Notes: generated by a model from the sequence alone, not told the origin. A stretch of DNA of 64,000 nucleotides from Streptomonospora mangrovi (GCF_027604915.1 NZ_JAJAQC010000012.1:1-64000); one strand, 5' to 3'; positions 12,245-20,809 are shown, counted from the stretch's first letter. A program made the numbers and translations.

Positions 12245-13212
12245 GCGGGCCGGTGGTGTGCGTGGGCGAGACGATGGCGCTGCTGGTGCCCGCCGACCCG
12301 GTGCCGCTGGAGTCGGCGCCGCGCCTGGCCCTCACGGCGGCCGGGGCGGAGTCCAACGTCGCCTGCACGCTGGCCGGGCTGGGGCACGGCGCGGCCTGGC
12401 TGAGCGCGGTGGGCGACGACCCCTTCGGCCGGGTGGTGCTGCGCGCGGTCGCCGGGCGCGGCGTGGACGTGTCGGCGGTGCGCACCGACCCCGACCGCCC
12501 CACCGGCCTCTTCGCCAAGGACCCCGCGCCGCAGGGGAGCACCGTGCACTACTACCGGGCCGGCTCGGCCGCCTCGGCGCTGGGCCCCGAGGCCGCCGAC
12601 GACCCGCTGGTGCGCGGGGCGGCGGGCGTGCACCTGTCGGGGATCACGCCGGCGCTGTCGCCGGAGTGCGACGCGCTCGCCGAGCGGCTGCTCACCGACC
12701 CCGCGCTTGTGGTGAGCTTCGACGTCAACCACCGGCCCCGGCTGTGGCCGCCGGGGCGGGCGGCGGCGCGGCTGCTGGAGCTGGCGCGGCTGGCCGACGT
12801 GGTCCTGGTCGGCCGCGACGAGGCCGAGGCGCTGTGGGGCACGGCGACCGCCGAGGAGGTCCGCGCCCTGCTGCCCGACGTGCCGCGCCTGGTGGTCAAG
12901 GACGCCGAGCACGGCGCGACCGAGTTCGCCGAGGGCCGCACGCACGTGCCCTCGCCGGTGGTGGAGGTGGTGGAACCGGTCGGCGCGGGCGACGCCTTCG
13001 CCGCCGGGTACCTCGCGGGCGGGCTGCGCGGCCTGGACGCGGCGGGCCGGCTGCGCCTGGGGCACCTGTGCGCCGCCCGGGTGCTGCGCGAACTGGGCGA
13101 CCTGGCCCCGCCGCCGCAGGCGGGGGAGTGGGACGCGGCGCTGCACGCGCCGGAGGAGCGCTGGGTGGAGCTGGCGTCGGCCCGGTCAGTGAGCGGGCGG
13201 GTCAGTGAGTGA
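12241..13212 (+). CDS. PfkB-family sugar kinase (2-keto-3-deoxy sugar-acid kinase)
   Basis: This ribokinase-superfamily kinase of 323 residues would phosphorylate 2-keto-3-deoxygalactonate (or -gluconate) with ATP. The N-terminal GETMALLVP and ESNVACTLAGLG (substrate side) and PfkB signature 2, GAGDAFAAG with catalytic Asp251, are intact. SFDVNHRPRLW is a typical KdgK motif. E. coli DgoK is unrelated in fold, so this is a KdgK-type replacement serving the same step. GTG 12241 overlaps the lactonase stop. The last residues (VSGRVSE) look like read-through of a small repeat. Confidence 0.9.
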   Translation: MSGPVVCVGETMALLVPADPVPLESAPRLALTAAGAESNVACTLAGLGHGAAWLSAVGDDPFGRVVLRAVAGRGVDVSAVRTDPDRPTGLFAKDPAPQGSTVHYYRAGSAASALGPEAADDPLVRGAAGVHLSGITPALSPECDALAERLLTDPALVVSFDVNHRPRLWPPGRAAARLLELARLADVVLVGRDEAEALWGTATAEEVRALLPDVPRLVVKDAEHGATEFAEGRTHVPSPVVEVVEPVGAGDAFAAGYLAGGLRGLDAAGRLRLGHLCAARVLRELGDLAPPPQAGEWDAALHAPEERWVELASARSVSGRVSE

Positions 13213-13276
13213 GCGAGTCAGGGAGTGCGCGGGGGAGCGGGGGCGGAAAGTGCGTGAGCGAGAGAGGGAGCACCGG

Positions 13277-13885
13277 ATGAGCAGCGGCAACGACAGCGGC
13301 AGCGGCCTGGACCGGCTGTTCGAGGGCCACCGGGTGATGGCCATCCTGCGCGGCCTGTCCCCCGAGGACACTGTCGCGGTGGCCACCCGGGCGTGGGACC
13401 TGGGCATCACCGTGGTGGAGGTGCCCGCGCGCGACCCCGGCGGCCTGGAGGCGATGCGCGCGGCGGTGCGGGCGGGCGCGGAGCGGGGGCTGCGGGTGGG
13501 CGCGGGCACCGTCGTGGACGTCGACCAGGTCCGCGCGGTCGCGCGGGCGGGCGCGGCGTTCACCGTGGCCCCCGGCTTCGACCCCGAGGTCATGGTGGCC
13601 TCGGAGGAGGCGGGCATGCCCCACCTGCCCGGCGTGGCCACCCCCTCGGAGGTCCAGGCCGTCCTGCGCGCGGGCGGGCACTGGGTGAAGGCGTTCCCCG
13701 CGTCGGTCCTCGGCCCGGCCTGGATCCAGGCTCTTCACGGCCCGTTCCCCGACGTCCGCGTGGTGGCCACCGGAGGCGTCGACGCCCGCAACGCCCCGGC
13801 CTTCCTCCAGGCCGGAGCCGCCCTGGTCGCCGTGGGCTCGGCCCTCAGCGACCCCGACCAGATCCCGGCCTTGAAGGACCTGTAG
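13277..13885 (+). CDS. dgoA: KDPG/KDPGal aldolase
   Basis: This class I aldolase of 202 residues splits a 2-keto-3-deoxy-6-phospho sugar acid into pyruvate and glyceraldehyde 3-phosphate. The Schiff-base lysine is Lys138 (HWVKAFPAS), the catalytic glutamate is Glu48 (VVEVPAR), and GAGTVVDVDQV matches the family loop. The frame is open from 13205, but ATG 13277 has GAGAGGGAG upstream and gives the normal family length. The reading upstream of it is Arg/Glu-rich repeat-like sequence. Eda-type and DgoA-type enzymes are hard to separate by sequence, so the galacto preference rests on the adjacent dgoD. It is the last gene of the operon. Confidence 0.9.
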   Translation: MSSGNDSGSGLDRLFEGHRVMAILRGLSPEDTVAVATRAWDLGITVVEVPARDPGGLEAMRAAVRAGAERGLRVGAGTVVDVDQVRAVARAGAAFTVAPGFDPEVMVASEEAGMPHLPGVATPSEVQAVLRAGGHWVKAFPASVLGPAWIQALHGPFPDVRVVATGGVDARNAPAFLQAGAALVAVGSALSDPDQIPALKDL

Positions 13886-14146: not shown

Positions 14147-14169
14147 GGTTAGATTAGCCTGCACTAACC
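14147..14169. promoter_or_regulatory. Probable IdeR/DmdR iron box
   Basis: TTAGATTAGCCTGCACTAA (14149-14167) matches 14 of 19 positions of the DtxR/IdeR consensus TTAGGTTAGGCTAACCTAA. It is framed by perfect inverted arms, GGTTAG (14147-14152) and CTAACC (14164-14169). It lies about 125 bases upstream of the exporter start. In actinobacteria such a site is where the iron-loaded repressor shuts off siderophore and iron-transport genes, so the exporter is probably made under iron limitation. Confidence 0.6.
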
Positions 14170-14290: not shown

Positions 14291-16267
14291 ATGGCAGGTC
14301 GGACGAGGCGGCCCTGGGCGCGGGTGCCGGAGGAGCCGGTGCCGGTGGAGCTGCCGCCGACAGGGCCGGAGCAGACACCCCGGCGCTTCACCATCGGGGT
14401 CATCCTCGCGGCCAAGCGCTACACCCTCCCCGCCGCCGGGCTCATCGTGCTCTGGCAGTTGGGCGAGGCGCTGGTGCCCGTCCTCATGGGCGTGGCGATC
14501 GACCGGGCCATCGGCGGGGCCGACCCCGTCGAGTTGGTCCTGTGGATCGGGGTGCTGGTCCTCAACTACCTCATGTTCATGCTGTCCTTCCAGTTCGGCT
14601 CCCGCATCGGGCTCTTCGGGATGCAGGCGGTCCAGCACCGGCTGCGCACGGCCGTGTCCGAGCGCCTGCTGGACCCCGGCGGCCTCGAAGGCGCCGCGCG
14701 GCTGCCCGGCGTCGGGCTGTCCGTGGCCTCCTCCGACGTCTCGCGCCTGGCCATGGCCGTCGCGATCGCGGTCTACCCCCTCGGGGAGTTCGCGGCGATC
14801 ATCTTCGGCGGGGTCGTCCTCTTCACGCTCTCCTGGCCGCTGGGGCTGGCCGTGTTCGTCGGCGCCCCGGCGATGATCCTGCTCATCGACCGCGCGGGCG
14901 GGACCCTGCGGCGGCGGTCGGGCCGCGAGCAGGCGCTCGCCGCGTCGGCGGCGGGCAAGGCCGCCGACCTCATGGCGGGCTACCGGATCGTCACGGGACT
15001 GCGCGCCGGACCGGAGGCGGCGGCGCGCTACCGGCGGTCCTCGCGCGACGCACTCCAGGCCACCCTGCACGCGAAGTCCGCCCAGGGGGTCCTGCTCGGC
15101 TCGATGAACGCCGCCACCGGCGTGTTCCTCGCCGCGATCACCCTCACCGCCGGGTGGCAGGCGCTGTCCGGCTCCCTGAGCGTGGGCGCGCTCATCACCG
15201 TCGTGGGCCTCGCACAGTTCCTCGTCGGGCCGATGACCATGGTCGCGACCAACTTCGGCACCATCTGGGCGTCGGCGACCGCCTCGGCCGAGCGCGTTCT
15301 CGACGTCCTGCGCTCCCCGAAGCCCTACGAGCGGCCCGCCGCGTCCGCAGCCTTCGCCAACGGCACCACCGAAGCCGCCCCCGCCCCCGGCCACGGCGCG
15401 ATCGGCACCGCACCCGGGGCCGGGCAGCCGACCGGCGGGGACACCGCCGCCGACGGCGACGCGGACACCGACGGCCGCCACCCCACCGACCCCGAACCCC
15501 TCGACCTCGATCCCGACCACCTCCACCTCGACCTCGATCTCACCCTCGGCGCGGCGGCCCTGCGCGACCGCGTCGCCCCCGGCGAGTGCGTGGCGGTGCC
15601 CGTTGACGGCACGCAGGCGGCCGAACTCGTGGCGGTGCTGTCCGGCCGCGCCGAGCCCGGGGGAGGGGAAGGCGTGCGGCTCGCGGGCCGCGCCCTCGCC
15701 GACGCGCCACCCGGAACCCTCCTCGTGGCGCCCCACGCCGCCGACCTCTTCGACGGCACCGTCCTGGACAACGTCGCGGTCGGCGGCGCGGACACCGACC
15801 GCGCCCTGGCGGCGCTGGAGGACGCCGGTTGCGCGGAGTTCCTCCGCGCCATGCCCGAGGACGTGCACACCGCCGTCGGCGAGGGCGGGCGCCGCCTCTC
15901 CGGCGGGCAGCGCCAGCGGGTGGCGCTGGCCCGGGCGCTCGCCCAGGACACCCCCGTCCTCGTGCTGCACGACCCCACCACGGCGGTCGACTCGGTGACC
16001 GAGCAGGCGGTGGCCGCGCGGCTGCGCACGTGCCGGCAGGGCCGCACCACGGTTCTGCTCACCCGCTCGCCCGCGCTGCTGGCGGCCGCCGACCGGGTGC
16101 TGCGGCTCGGCAGCGCCCAAGAGACCCAAGAGACCCAAGAGACCCAAGAGCCGCAGGCGGCACAAGGCCACGAGTACACCGACGCCCCCGGCACCGGCAC
16201 CCCCACCACCGCCACCACCCCCACCACCGCCTCGACCGCCACCACCGCCCAGGGAGGCACGCGATGA
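14291..16267 (+). CDS. ABC exporter half-transporter A (catalytically dead nucleotide site, intact signature)
   Basis: This 658-residue protein has a six-helix exporter membrane domain (about 30-340), an acidic, Pro/Asp-rich linker (about 355-425) and a nucleotide-binding domain. The domain has lost its own ATP-site residues. The Walker A position reads PVDGTQAAELV (about 437) with no GKST. Walker B is VLHDPTTAVD, with proline where the catalytic Glu should be. The switch histidine is replaced (LLTRSPAL). The signature LSGGQ (536-540) is perfect. The C-terminus carries QET repeats (about 617-628) and a Thr/Pro tail. AGGGAGAGGG precedes ATG 14291. It overlaps the partner gene (ATGA) and sits under the iron-box-like site. 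Confidence 0.88.
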   Translation: MAGRTRRPWARVPEEPVPVELPPTGPEQTPRRFTIGVILAAKRYTLPAAGLIVLWQLGEALVPVLMGVAIDRAIGGADPVELVLWIGVLVLNYLMFMLSFQFGSRIGLFGMQAVQHRLRTAVSERLLDPGGLEGAARLPGVGLSVASSDVSRLAMAVAIAVYPLGEFAAIIFGGVVLFTLSWPLGLAVFVGAPAMILLIDRAGGTLRRRSGREQALAASAAGKAADLMAGYRIVTGLRAGPEAAARYRRSSRDALQATLHAKSAQGVLLGSMNAATGVFLAAITLTAGWQALSGSLSVGALITVVGLAQFLVGPMTMVATNFGTIWASATASAERVLDVLRSPKPYERPAASAAFANGTTEAAPAPGHGAIGTAPGAGQPTGGDTAADGDADTDGRHPTDPEPLDLDPDHLHLDLDLTLGAAALRDRVAPGECVAVPVDGTQAAELVAVLSGRAEPGGGEGVRLAGRALADAPPGTLLVAPHAADLFDGTVLDNVAVGGADTDRALAALEDAGCAEFLRAMPEDVHTAVGEGGRRLSGGQRQRVALARALAQDTPVLVLHDPTTAVDSVTEQAVAARLRTCRQGRTTVLLTRSPALLAAADRVLRLGSAQETQETQETQEPQAAQGHEYTDAPGTGTPTTATTPTTASTATTAQGGTR

Positions 16268-18135
16268 CCGCGCGCGACAGCGACACGGCCGCCGAAGCGG
16301 GAGCGTCCCGCGCGGGGCGGCGGCTGCCCGTCGCCGACGCCCGCCAGGTCGCCCGCGCGGTGCGCGCGGCGCTGGGCGGGCGGTGGTGGTCGCTGGCCGG
16401 TGTGGTCGCCATTCTCACGGCGGGAGCGGCCGCCGACCTCATCGCTCCGGCCGCGCTCGGCGGGCTGGTCGACGCCGTGGAGTCCGGCGAGACGGGCACC
16501 GCCTGGCTGTGGACCCTGGGCGCGGCCATGGTCGGCGGCGCCCTGGTCGGCGCCGTCCTGACGGCCGTCGGCGTGGTGACGGCCTCCCGCCTGTACGAGA
16601 CGGTCATCGCCCAATTGCGCGAGCGCATGGTCGCCCGCGCGTTCGAGCTGCCGCAGGGCATGGTCGAGGAGGCGGGCAGCGGCGACCTGGTCTCGCGCGC
16701 CACCGACGACGTCGCCGAGATCTCCCAGGCCGCGCCGCGCATCGTGCCCGCGCTGACCAGTTCGCTCTTCACCATCGCCGTGACGCTGGTCGGCATCGCG
16801 GTCGTGGACTACCGCTACGCGCTGGCGGTCGCGGTGATCGTGCCCATCCACGTGTTCGCCGTGCGCTGGTACCTGCGCAACGCCCCGCAGGTGTACACGG
16901 CGCAGCGCGCCGCCATGGCCGAGCGCGCCCACCACCTGCTGACCTCCCTCCACGGGATCGACACCGTGCACGCCTACCGGTTGCAGGACCGCCACAACGC
17001 CCGCATCGCGCGGGCGTCGTGGCAGGTGGTGGGGTGGGAACTGCGGGCCCGCGTCGTGCAGAACCGGTTCTTCGGGCGGCTCAACGTGGCGGAGTTCCTC
17101 GGCATGACGGGGCTGCTGGTCGTGGGCTACCTGCTGGTGACCAACGACCTGGGCACCCTGGGCGGCGCGACGACGGCGATCATGTTCTTCATCCGGCTGT
17201 TCAACCCGATCAACAGCCTGCTCATCGTCATCGACGACATGCAGTCGGCGCTGGCATCCCTGGCGCGGATCGTCGGGGTCATCGACGCCACGCCCGAACC
17301 CCAGGAGCCGGGGCACGACGCGGTCAGCGCGCCCGGCGACGCGGACGACCGGGAGGACGCCGCGGACAACGGGGAGGACGACGCCGTCAGCGCGCTGGCG
17401 GACGCCGGCGCTCCGCCCGTCCTGGCCCTGCGGGACGTCGCGTTCCACTACGACCCCGACCGCCCGGTCCTCAACGGGGTGAGCCTGGAGATCGGCCGCA
17501 CCGAGACGGTCGCGCTCGTCGGGCCCTCCGGCGCGGGCAAGAGCACCGTCGCCGCACTGGCGGCCGGCGTGCACGAGCCGACGGCGGGCTCGGTCCGCCG
17601 CCCTCCGGCGGCGGAGGGGCGCGACCGCGACCTGGTCCTCATCACCCAGGAGGTGCACGTCTTCGCCGCGACCCTGCGCGAGAACCTCACCCTGGCGGCC
17701 CCTTCGGCCGACGACGAGCAGGTCAGGGCGGCGCTCGCCACGGTCGGCGCCGACGGCCTCCTGGCCCGCCTTCCCGAAGGACTCGACACCGTGGTCGGCA
17801 CCGAGGGGCACAGCCTGACACCGGCCGAGGCCCAACTGCTGGCCCTGGCCAGGATGGTCCTCGCCGACCCGGCCGTGGCCATCCTCGACGAGGCCACCGC
17901 CGAGGCGGGGTCCGCCCACGCCGGCACCCTCGACAGCGCCACGGCGGCGGCCCTGTCGGGCCGAGCCGGCCTCGTGGTCGCCCACCGCCTGGACCAGGCC
18001 AAAGCCTGCGACCGCATCCTCGTCATCGAGTCCGGCCGCATCATCGAGGAGGGCAGCCACACCGACCTCCGCGCCCTCGGCGGCACCTACGCCGCCCTCT
18101 GGGAGGCCTGGAGCCGCCAGACCGCGCCGCGTTAG
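16264..18135 (+). CDS. ABC exporter half-transporter B (active nucleotide site, degenerate signature)
   Basis: This 623-residue partner of the preceding protein has a six-helix membrane domain (about 40-345), an acidic linker (about 352-382) and a nucleotide-binding domain. Here Walker A GPSGAGKST (420-428), Walker B AILDEAT with catalytic Glu543, and the switch histidine His574 (VAHRL) are intact. The signature has become LTPAEAQ (518-524). Combined with the intact LSGGQ of partner A, one composite ATP site is complete and the other is broken on both faces. Substrate is unknown. The iron box upstream suggests siderophore or iron-stress-related export. Confidence 0.9.
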   Translation: MTARDSDTAAEAGASRAGRRLPVADARQVARAVRAALGGRWWSLAGVVAILTAGAAADLIAPAALGGLVDAVESGETGTAWLWTLGAAMVGGALVGAVLTAVGVVTASRLYETVIAQLRERMVARAFELPQGMVEEAGSGDLVSRATDDVAEISQAAPRIVPALTSSLFTIAVTLVGIAVVDYRYALAVAVIVPIHVFAVRWYLRNAPQVYTAQRAAMAERAHHLLTSLHGIDTVHAYRLQDRHNARIARASWQVVGWELRARVVQNRFFGRLNVAEFLGMTGLLVVGYLLVTNDLGTLGGATTAIMFFIRLFNPINSLLIVIDDMQSALASLARIVGVIDATPEPQEPGHDAVSAPGDADDREDAADNGEDDAVSALADAGAPPVLALRDVAFHYDPDRPVLNGVSLEIGRTETVALVGPSGAGKSTVAALAAGVHEPTAGSVRRPPAAEGRDRDLVLITQEVHVFAATLRENLTLAAPSADDEQVRAALATVGADGLLARLPEGLDTVVGTEGHSLTPAEAQLLALARMVLADPAVAILDEATAEAGSAHAGTLDSATAAALSGRAGLVVAHRLDQAKACDRILVIESGRIIEEGSHTDLRALGGTYAALWEAWSRQTAPR

Positions 18136-18466
18136 CGGACGGCGGCCGCCCAACACCCCCGATCCCCGACTCCGCCTCCCCGAATCCGCTTCAATCCCCG
18201 AACCCCCGGATCCCGGGGGCCGTGCCGCGCGTCGTAGGCGACAGCGGCGGACACCCCCCGCCCGCCGCGCCGGTCCGGCAGCACGCCGACCCGGCAGGCC
18301 CCGCAGGCCCCGGGGCCGAACGGCCCCGCCGGACCATGGCCGACCCGTCGACTCCTCGCCCCCGCGCCGACAGCCCGCAGCGGCGCGGCGGCCGGCGGAT
18401 CCGGTGAAAACGGGATGACCCCGGACGGGTCTGTCCGCAAGGGTGGGGGCGGACCAGGAGGCACAC
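18136..18466. other. Intergenic region with terminator-like hairpin
   Basis: There is no gene. The pyrimidine-rich stretch 18155-18205 repeats ATCCCCGA-like words. It is followed by a hairpin at 18203-18219, listed separately. The end of the region carries the promoter and ribosome site of the next gene. Confidence 0.4.
18203..18219 (+). terminator. Hairpin after the ABC exporter operon
   Basis: CCCCCGG (18203-18209) pairs with CCGGGGG (18213-18219) around a three-base loop, about 70 bases after the exporter stop. There is no T-run. Confidence 0.4.
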
Positions 18467-20809
18467 ATGCATGACGCGACCGACCACGGCGGGCTGGAGG
18501 CCCGCCTCATCCAGGCCACCCTGCGCGTCCCCGCGCGCGCCGGTGCGCCCTCCGGCCGGGCGGAGAACGTGGCCCGACAGGCGGACGCCGCGCTGCTGAC
18601 GGCGGGGTTCGCCTGCTCCCGGGAACTGCTGGAGCACATCGCCGGGCTGGAACCCGGCGCCGCGATCGACACCGCCGTCGCCGTCCTCGCCGCCGTGCGA
18701 GGCCTGGCGGGCGGCCACGTCGACCACAACGTCTACTTCGCCGACTTCCCGGCCAACGTGCCCGACACCCTGGACTTCTGGGCGGACTGCCTGGCCCGCG
18801 CGCTCGTCGGCGCCGCCGAAGGCGACGACGAGGACGCCGCCGCCGGGACGGACGCCGTCGTCGCGGACCCCACCAAGGCGGACGCCGCCGCCGAAGGCGC
18901 GGACGACGCGGCCGAGGACGGGCACCCCGGCGCCGACCCCGCGCCGCGCCCCGACGGGGTGAACCTGCTGGGCCTGCCCGCCTACGGGCGCTACCAGCAC
19001 ACCTACGCCGACCTCCTCCTGCGCCACGACGACCTCGTGGCCTCGGCCAAGGACCGCGTCACCGTGCTGCACCTGGGCGGTCCCCTGCCCGAGGAGGCGC
19101 ACCGCCACTACCTGCGGCTGGCCGCCTCGCCCGTCCCGCTGGGCGAGGCCGACCGCGACCTGCTGGGGCTGCTGGCCGCCTACTGCGTCGACGACCCCCA
19201 GCCCGAGGAGATCGGCATCCGCGAGAACCGGGCGCTGGTCAACCGGGTGCGCCTGGCGCACGGCCGCCCGCTGCTCGTGGACACCGCCACCGACGTCCTG
19301 CGCCTGGCGTGCGCCCTGTCGGGAGGCGACGTCACCCTCGCCACGCCCACCCGCTTCACCTCGCTGCCGCGCGCCGACCGCCGCGCGCTCATGGCCGCTC
19401 TGGACCGGGTGGTCGCCGGCCAGCCCGCCAAGCTCGGCGACGTCAACCGCCACGCGGGCCGCTGGAAGCGGCTCGGCGAGCGGCTGCACCCCCACGAGCA
19501 CCCCGAGCACCCGCACGCCCAGGAGGTGTTCGCGGTCGCGCGCGGCGACCGGCGCGCCGTCTCCCTGGCCGGACGCATCGAGGCCGCGTTCGCCGCCGGC
19601 GACACCGCCGAGGCGGTGCGGCTGCTCGCCGCGTCGCCCGGGCAGCTCGTGCGCAACCTGGACCGACTCCTGCGCACACCCGGCACCCCCGCCCCGGACG
19701 CGACCGCCTCGGGAAAGACCGCTCCGGGAGGGACCGCCCCGGACGCGGTCGGCCTGATCGCCGGTGCCCTGGCCGAGGCCGCCCCGCACGTCGCCGGGCG
19801 GGTGCTGGTGGGCGCCCGCGAGCACCTGAGCGGCCGCACCGGGCTCGGCGGGGCGCGGCTGTTCGCCAACCGCTCCGCCCGCGCGTGGGTGGCGCCCGAC
19901 GACCGGGTACCGCTCGGCACCGAGGCCGTCGCGCGCGTCACGGCGGTCCTGGACGCGGAGATCGCCGCGCGCCTGCCGGCCGCCGAGCGGGTCCTGGTCG
20001 ACCCCGACGTCCTGGAGGTCGCCGTGCCCAGCGCCCGCGCGCCCGAGGGCGGGCTGGGCATGCTGCCCCGCGGCTCCACCACCCGGGTGGACGGCGACCA
20101 CCTGCGCTTCTTCGTGTACTGGCGCCAGGCCCGGGAAATCACCGACCTCGACCTGTCGGTGCTGTTCCTCGACGCCGGCTTCGGCTTCCAGGGGCAGGTG
20201 TCGTGGACGTCCCTGTCGGGCTACGGCGGCACCCACTCGGGCGACATCGTCGAGGCGTCCGAGGGCGCCACCGAGATGATCGACCTCGACCTGGCCCGGG
20301 TCTCCGCCGCCTACGTGGTGCCGCAGGTCAACGTCTTCCAGGGGGAGGGCTTCGCCGAGCTCGCCGAGGGGTTCTTCGGCTACATGACCCGCGACGCCGA
20401 TCAGGCCGGCATGCCCTTCGAGGCCCGCACGGTCCGCGTCAAGTCCGACCTGGTGGGCACGGGCCGCGTCGTGCTGCCGCTGGTGTTCGCCCGCGACCCC
20501 GACACGGGCGGGTGGCGGGCGCGGTGGATGCACCTGAGCCTGTCGGGCCAGGCGGCGTTCAACCGGGTCGAGGACAACCACGCCGACACCGGCGCGCTCG
20601 CGCGCGCCATCGTGGAGTACCGGTACCTGACCATCGGCCACCTGGTGGAATCGATGCGCCACCGCGGCGCGCGGGTGGAAATCCGCAAGGAATCTCCCGG
20701 CCGGCTGAGCCCCGGCGACGTCTACCTCGGCCTGGAGCACCCCGAAGACCTGGGAGACGACGGAGAGGTCTTCACCCCCGCCCGCTTCCCGGAACTCATT
20801 GGCGGCTGA
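18467..20809 (+). CDS. Large TerD-related protein (MXAN_6230/SCO0854-like)
   Basis: The protein has 780 residues and ATG 18467 follows CAGGAGG. The C-terminal part (about 545-740) has TerD-like features: FFVYWRQAREITDLDLSVLF, then GYGGTHSGDI and EMIDLDLARV. TerD proteins bind calcium and belong to tellurite/stress-resistance systems. The whole resembles a family of large myxobacterial and streptomycete proteins that, as I recall, carry a RING-like zinc motif after the N-terminal helical domain. Here that place (about 115-165) is an Asp/Glu/Ala-rich linker without paired cysteines. A His-rich stretch (RLHPHEHPEHPHAQ, about 345) could bind metal. No other ter gene is adjacent. Function unknown. 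Confidence 0.75.
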   Translation: MHDATDHGGLEARLIQATLRVPARAGAPSGRAENVARQADAALLTAGFACSRELLEHIAGLEPGAAIDTAVAVLAAVRGLAGGHVDHNVYFADFPANVPDTLDFWADCLARALVGAAEGDDEDAAAGTDAVVADPTKADAAAEGADDAAEDGHPGADPAPRPDGVNLLGLPAYGRYQHTYADLLLRHDDLVASAKDRVTVLHLGGPLPEEAHRHYLRLAASPVPLGEADRDLLGLLAAYCVDDPQPEEIGIRENRALVNRVRLAHGRPLLVDTATDVLRLACALSGGDVTLATPTRFTSLPRADRRALMAALDRVVAGQPAKLGDVNRHAGRWKRLGERLHPHEHPEHPHAQEVFAVARGDRRAVSLAGRIEAAFAAGDTAEAVRLLAASPGQLVRNLDRLLRTPGTPAPDATASGKTAPGGTAPDAVGLIAGALAEAAPHVAGRVLVGAREHLSGRTGLGGARLFANRSARAWVAPDDRVPLGTEAVARVTAVLDAEIAARLPAAERVLVDPDVLEVAVPSARAPEGGLGMLPRGSTTRVDGDHLRFFVYWRQAREITDLDLSVLFLDAGFGFQGQVSWTSLSGYGGTHSGDIVEASEGATEMIDLDLARVSAAYVVPQVNVFQGEGFAELAEGFFGYMTRDADQAGMPFEARTVRVKSDLVGTGRVVLPLVFARDPDTGGWRARWMHLSLSGQAAFNRVEDNHADTGALARAIVEYRYLTIGHLVESMRHRGARVEIRKESPGRLSPGDVYLGLEHPEDLGDDGEVFTPARFPELIGG

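Follow-up and report, generated by a model that had tools for sequence, protein, structure and literature searches.

A conserved, iron-linked ABC transporter pair of Streptomonospora mangrovi and other actinobacteria with a single predicted ATP site

A 64,000-nucleotide stretch of the Streptomonospora mangrovi genome (NZ_JAJAQC010000012.1, positions 1 to 64,000; hereinafter the window) encodes two adjacent halves, A and B, of an ATP-binding cassette (ABC) transporter in which the motifs of the two ATP sites are lost in a complementary fashion: half A has no P-loop and keeps an intact signature, and half B keeps the catalytic motifs and has a degenerate signature. The same design recurs in more than 100 related actinobacterial pairs, mostly beside siderophore genes, and is therefore a conserved pump design rather than a broken copy. 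We consider it probable that the pair is an iron-regulated, obligate heterodimeric transporter of type IV (ABCB-type) with one ATP site, the most likely function of which is the export or recycling of a siderophore.

The gene pair and its ATP-site motifs

The S. mangrovi genome assembly comprises 6.36 Mb in 121 contigs. The two genes of the pair and the motifs of their nucleotide-binding domains (NBDs) are as follows, all on the plus strand and in window coordinates.

14291-16267, plus strand: half A open reading frame, 658 amino acids; six-transmembrane-helix (6-TM) domain, then a degenerate NBD with the signature kept
16264-18135, plus strand: half B open reading frame, 623 amino acids; 6-TM domain, then a catalytic NBD with a degenerate signature
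15590-15625, plus strand: half A, site of the missing P-loop, reading VAVPVDGTQAAE (residues 434-445)
15725-15751, plus strand: half A, Q-loop position, VAPHAADLF, no Gln
15872-15910, plus strand: half A, X-loop and signature, AVGEGGRRLSGGQ; X-loop VGEGG and LSGGQRQR both intact
15959-15994, plus strand: half A, Walker B and D-loop, LVLHDPTTAVDS; Walker B LVLHDPT altered, D-loop AVDS intact
16055-16075, plus strand: half A, switch region, LLTRSPA, no His
17521-17547, plus strand: half B, Walker A, GPSGAGKST, intact
17638-17664, plus strand: half B, Q-loop, LITQEVHVF (ITQE), intact
17815-17835, plus strand: half B, signature, LTPAEAQ, degenerate
17878-17913, plus strand: half B, Walker B and D-loop, AILDEATAEAGS; AILDE with the catalytic Glu intact, D-loop EAGS altered
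17974-17991, plus strand: half B, H-loop, VVAHRL, intact

Given this motif content, the site composed of the Walker motifs of B and the signature of A is complete, whereas the opposite site is lost on both of its sides. A preliminary description of the locus had claimed that half A lacks the Walker A Lys, the catalytic Glu and the switch His but keeps LSGGQ, and both the motif reading and the conservation pattern described below bear this out; the loss of the Glu (replaced by Asp) in Walker B of A is accompanied by a replacement of the Walker B Asp by His, which that description did not list. Its account of half B, with the Walker A Lys, Glu and His kept and LTPAEAQ in place of the signature, agrees with our reading, the altered D-loop being an additional change. 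There is no GK[ST] anywhere in half A that could represent a displaced Walker A motif; the sole GK (AAGKAA, residue 222) lies in the membrane domain.

Both halves match PF00664 and PF00005 above the Pfam cut-offs, with ABC_membrane preceding ABC_tran, the domain order of the type IV (ABCB-type) exporter fold; half A has no further Pfam matches, and half B has one sub-threshold AAA match. The AlphaFold2 single-chain models of A and B, built from 49-row alignments, agree with the motif reading. The half A model (mean pLDDT 83) comprises six TM helices and an NBD; in this NBD a 3-residue turn, at the expected place of the P-loop, links strand 433-436 to helix 440-450. The half B model (pLDDT 89) contains an ordinary 6-residue loop (420-425) before helix 426-434. 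Together, sequence, conservation and the half A model support the proposal of the preliminary description that exactly one composite site is likely to survive. The top structural matches are type IV transporters, namely CydDC, TmrAB, YbtPQ, MsRv1273c/72c, IrtAB and P-glycoprotein, many of which are tied, so that these matches give no subfamily assignment.

The ATG of the half B gene overlaps the stop codon of the half A gene by 4 bases, and both genes show strong coding periodicity (GC content at codon positions 1/2/3 of 0.77/0.56/0.95 and 0.76/0.52/0.96, respectively). The C-terminal end of half A (window 16117-16150) is a low-complexity tail that includes an ETQ repeat (ETQETQETQE) and a Thr-rich stretch and is predicted to be disordered. 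Upstream of half A, separated from it by an intergenic stretch, is a 2-keto-3-deoxy-6-phosphogluconate (KDPG) aldolase gene (13205-13885); the gene 3' of the pair (window 18443-20809) matches the MXAN_6230/SCO0854 RING-domain family (NF041916, E 1.5e-103) below the curated cut-off and has no Pfam match. Elsewhere in the same genome, the locus L164 (G000:C42:51000-60023) encodes an ordinary asymmetric exporter pair in which both Walker A motifs are kept, with LDDAT and AYR in one half and LSAGE in the other; this pair provides a useful contrast to the one described here.

Conservation and origin of the paired losses

Homologues were collected by whole-protein searches in the family of the host and by a scan of one genome per species, which yielded at least 577 relatives; the best 80 were kept, and the counts on 80 loci given here refer to these. 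Because the scan used a peptide pattern with [VI]LDEATA[ED]A, the catalytic Glu and the D-loop of B were partly selected for in these loci, whereas nothing was selected about A, the P-loop of B or the signature of B. All 80 loci are actinobacterial (Streptomyces, Tsukamurella, Gordonia, Rhodococcus, Williamsia, Microbacterium, Corynebacterium, Actinoplanes, Amycolatopsis and others), and the A gene adjoins the B gene in every one of them, which, together with the overlap of the genes in the window, is an indirect sign of assembly of A with B.

The loss of the P-loop in A and of the signature in B, as in the window pair, holds throughout the aligned homologues. None of the 108 A halves has a P-loop and all 108 keep the [LF]SGGQxQR signature; the switch His is present in 3, the Walker B Asp in 9 and the catalytic Glu in 19 of these rows. 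Among the 110 rows aligned for B, the Gln of the Q-loop and the catalytic Glu are present in all, and the P-loop and the His in 109 each. The only row with a canonical signature turned out to be a stray neighbouring exporter encoded on the other strand (locus L050) and was discarded as not being a B half, so that a canonical signature is found in 0 of the 109 true B halves. By sequence, the invariant losses of the family are those of the P-loop in A and of the signature in B; the catalytic Glu of A is retained in some members.

A quick tree with some long rows was built from membrane-domain columns only and thus excludes the motifs. In this tree, the 32 A halves group together (SH-aLRT 99), as do the 32 B halves (95), and 11 other exporters fall outside both groups. 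Among these sequences is a deep Streptomyces branch that carries the same losses (A, VCGDPDAAGRLA...SLSGGQRQR...VFTSSPL; B, LTPAQAQ), in which the D-loop of half B is near normal. Because A and B each form a single group, deep branch included, the sequences are most simply explained by one old event of paired loss, retained since. The paired loss most likely goes back to the ancestor of a large actinobacterial family, to which the CchG/CchI-type pairs of Streptomyces also belong. The statement of the preliminary description that known asymmetric exporters usually keep both Walker A lysines, from which it concluded that the window pair is an extreme one-site machine, was, accordingly, too strong: the trait belongs to the whole family, and the same complete paired losses are found in Pdr5 and its relatives among the fungal PDR transporters.

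Matches to both the A and the B profiles were detected in 31 of the 31 Streptomyces genomes sampled, in most of which the deep branch is represented by an adjoining A-B pair (L144 4906-8855, L149 5573-9207, L150 and L151). In Williamsia limnetica (L092, 8194-9597), B is directly followed by a second, partial B-like frame (572 bits, 468 amino acids), which may be a duplication.

Iron box and siderophore context

The preliminary description, made from the sequence alone, did not capture the iron and siderophore context of the pair. The intergenic stretch between the KDPG-aldolase gene and half A contains a predicted regulatory site.

14149-14167, no strand assigned: predicted IdeR/DmdR-type iron box, TTAGATTAGCCTGCACTAA, 124 bp before the start codon of A

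This site matches the consensus TTAGGTTAGSCTAACCTAA in 15 of 19 positions, the next best site in the window scores 12, and none of 3000 shuffled versions of the intergenic stretch reached 15 or more. A 19-bp palindromic box in a promoter region, and the sole such site in the window, it has the sequence features expected of a member of an IdeR/DmdR regulon. Matches to the pattern TTAGNTTAGNCTNNNCTAA were set aside as circular because this pattern was derived from the site itself, and the consensus test was used instead. Boxes scoring at least 15 are present in 56 of the 80 related loci, in 31 of them directly before A, compared with 1 of 20 control loci around ordinary exporters. The S. mangrovi genome as a whole contains 7 palindromic boxes with no more than 3 mismatches and none that matches the reversed pattern; one of the 7, at C56:127048, is located some 1.3 kb ahead of FecCD genes.

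Genes of siderophore metabolism, for which nonribosomal peptide synthetase (NRPS, a marker that is not siderophore-specific), FecCD, binding protein, siderophore-interacting protein (SIP) reductase, ornithine monooxygenase and isochorismate enzymes served as markers, are present in 71 of 86 related loci versus 1 of 20 controls, the genomes of which were not matched one to one. Biosynthetic markers occur in 55 of the 86 loci, and 16 contain uptake genes only. A position within biosynthetic clusters points to secretion of the siderophore. Where the neighbours are SIP reductase and FecCD importers, with no biosynthetic genes, the position points to recycling of the siderophore once it has been emptied. 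Annotated plasmid records from Tsukamurella, Streptomyces and Rhodococcus place the pair within siderophore clusters; in other records it lies outside such clusters. The nearest kin of the window pair, from Microbacterium, Agreia, Herbiconiux and Naasia, have genes for a substrate-binding protein and two FecCD proteins directly upstream of A-B; an ATPase gene is seen where scanned (L056), and an iron box precedes the operon in L037.

In four Streptomyces genomes (G108, G110, G112 and G115), A and B are about 11 kb apart. The gene order in G112 is formyltransferase, ornithine monooxygenase, FecCD, FecCD, ATPase, binding protein, B, a 10.9-kb NRPS gene, A and esterase, which we take to be that of the coelichelin cluster. 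By this coelichelin-type order, with the Streptomyces coelicolor proteins matched by order alone, B occupies the position of CchG and A that of CchI. CchGI (SCO0491, SCO0493) is the presumed coelichelin exporter of S. coelicolor (PMC12161575). The pairs in coelichelin-type clusters show the same paired motif losses, and in the membrane-domain tree the window A and B fall in the same clades as these pairs (L141 and L143 rows); the A and B genes of the coelichelin-type clusters flank the NRPS gene, whereas those of the window overlap and stand alone. A search of the open-licence literature for earlier accounts of such losses, whether in CchG/CchI or in other siderophore transporters of bacteria, found none; the pair is a real, conserved, iron-linked variant of the heterodimeric ABC exporter that, as far as this literature shows, has not been described previously.

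Proposed mechanism, alternatives and implications

Under the mechanism that we propose, A and B would form an obligate heterodimer that binds and hydrolyses ATP solely at the site built from Walker A, Walker B, the Q-loop and the H-loop of B and from LSGGQ and the D-loop of A, with a presumable stoichiometry of one ATP. The opposite site, with no P-loop from A and no signature from B, would be structurally dead, and the NBD of A would serve as a signature donor and mechanical partner that contributes the signature, the D-loop and the coupling surface. The NBD dimer would close, and the membrane domains would switch, when ATP binds at the single complete site, and hydrolysis by the Glu and His of B would reset the transporter. 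P-glycoprotein with a single functional Walker A lysine retains about 15% of the wild-type transport (PMC4846820); by analogy, the natural pair may have tuned transport driven by a single lysine. The operon would be controlled by an IdeR/DmdR-type regulator and expressed under iron limitation, and the substrate is most likely a siderophore that is moved outwards, either for secretion or for recycling after the release of iron.

Several observations weigh against this scheme. No siderophore gene is present beside the pair in the 64-kb window, which thus does not place it inside a biosynthetic cluster; FecCD and a lysine/ornithine monooxygenase of the hydroxamate-siderophore type (C46:8699) are encoded elsewhere in the genome. 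The 16 loci with uptake genes and no biosynthetic marker fit recycling or import as well as secretion, and the deep-branch pairs of the sampled Streptomyces genomes have neither siderophore genes nor an iron box nearby. By analogy with IrtAB and YbtPQ, this fold is able to import siderophores and, by analogy with Pdr5, the loss of motifs is no proof of the loss of ATP binding.

The last point underlies the alternative that we regard as doubtful but the strongest of those considered, namely, that the degenerate site binds ATP non-canonically, as it does in Pdr5 and in exporters of the TmrAB type, so that the transporter would hold two nucleotides and hydrolyse one of them. Pdr5, in which NBD1 carries K to C, E to N and H to Y replacements and NBD2 has LNVEQ (PMC7756269, PMC8421411), resembles the window pair, as does Cdr1, in that the Walker A Lys, Glu and switch His are lost in one NBD and the signature in the other, and the degenerate site of Pdr5 nevertheless holds ATP (PMC8421411). 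The heterodimeric exporters TmrAB, TM287/288 and MsRv1273c/72c share with the pair the halves with a transmembrane domain (TMD) followed by an NBD, the single impaired site and, judging from the half models, the fold; as in half A, where it is Asp, the catalytic Glu is replaced in one NBD of the TmrAB and TM287/288 type, and the degenerate site of MsRv1273c/72c still holds ATP in the Walker A groove (PMC12038006). However, these asymmetric exporters keep Walker A in both halves, whereas in the model of half A the whole P-loop, and not just the lysine, appears to be shortened away to a 3-residue turn; A has also lost the Q-loop and the Walker B Asp, and its partner offers no signature. Pdr5 and Cdr1 are single polypeptides with the NBD before the TMD and an ABCG membrane fold, in contrast to the TMD-NBD halves with PF00664 of the window pair. 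Because the membrane fold and the domain order differ, the losses in Pdr5 and in the bacterial pair are most likely independent.

It is unlikely that the same one-site machine imports ferric siderophores, like the mycobacterial IrtAB and the YbtPQ of Yersinia, which are heterodimeric siderophore importers of the exporter fold. The fold match is good, the identity to IrtA/IrtB is about 20-26%, and the nearest relatives have genes for a binding protein and FecCD, and none for biosynthesis, as their neighbours. A dedicated importer (binding protein, FecCD and ATPase), however, is already present in those very loci, and many others are biosynthetic clusters. Membership in the IrtAB group was rejected: in IrtAB both ATP sites work and IrtA carries a siderophore-interaction domain (PMC10246721), whereas neither A nor B is fused to a siderophore-interaction (FAD-binding) domain, and the motifs of the pair are not those of two working sites.

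Still less probable is a general or drug exporter of one-site design, with the link to siderophores confined to other branches of the family. The lack of siderophore genes in the window and the deep Streptomyces members and some plasmid members without siderophore context would fit this possibility, but the iron box directly upstream of A and the presence of the nearest relatives in iron-uptake operons argue against it. Decay of the pair into a non-functional copy, which the unusual motif losses and the lack of a match to B above the level of ordinary exporters in two sampled genomes of the same genus might suggest, can be effectively ruled out given that both reading frames are open and strongly periodic by codon position, that no retained motif is damaged, and that the same losses are shared by 108 A and 109 B homologues, a degree of conservation that also excludes chance.

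Whether both ATP sites must bind ATP for closure of the NBD dimer and for transport is an open question that is usually approached with point mutants. The pair described here belongs to a large natural family in which one site has been removed from both sides by evolution. The chances seem to us evenly balanced that this is a natural exporter family in which one NBD, with the P-loop physically gone, is unable to bind nucleotide and a single ATP is used per closure, that is, a bacterial type IV counterpart of Pdr5, independent and more reduced, that serves mainly siderophores. If so, it would offer a clean one-site machine for comparison with Pdr5 and TmrAB, the substrate of which can be guessed and tested because relatives stand in identifiable siderophore clusters. 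The finding also bears on the export and recycling of siderophores in actinobacteria, where the exporters, such as CchGI, are mostly presumed.

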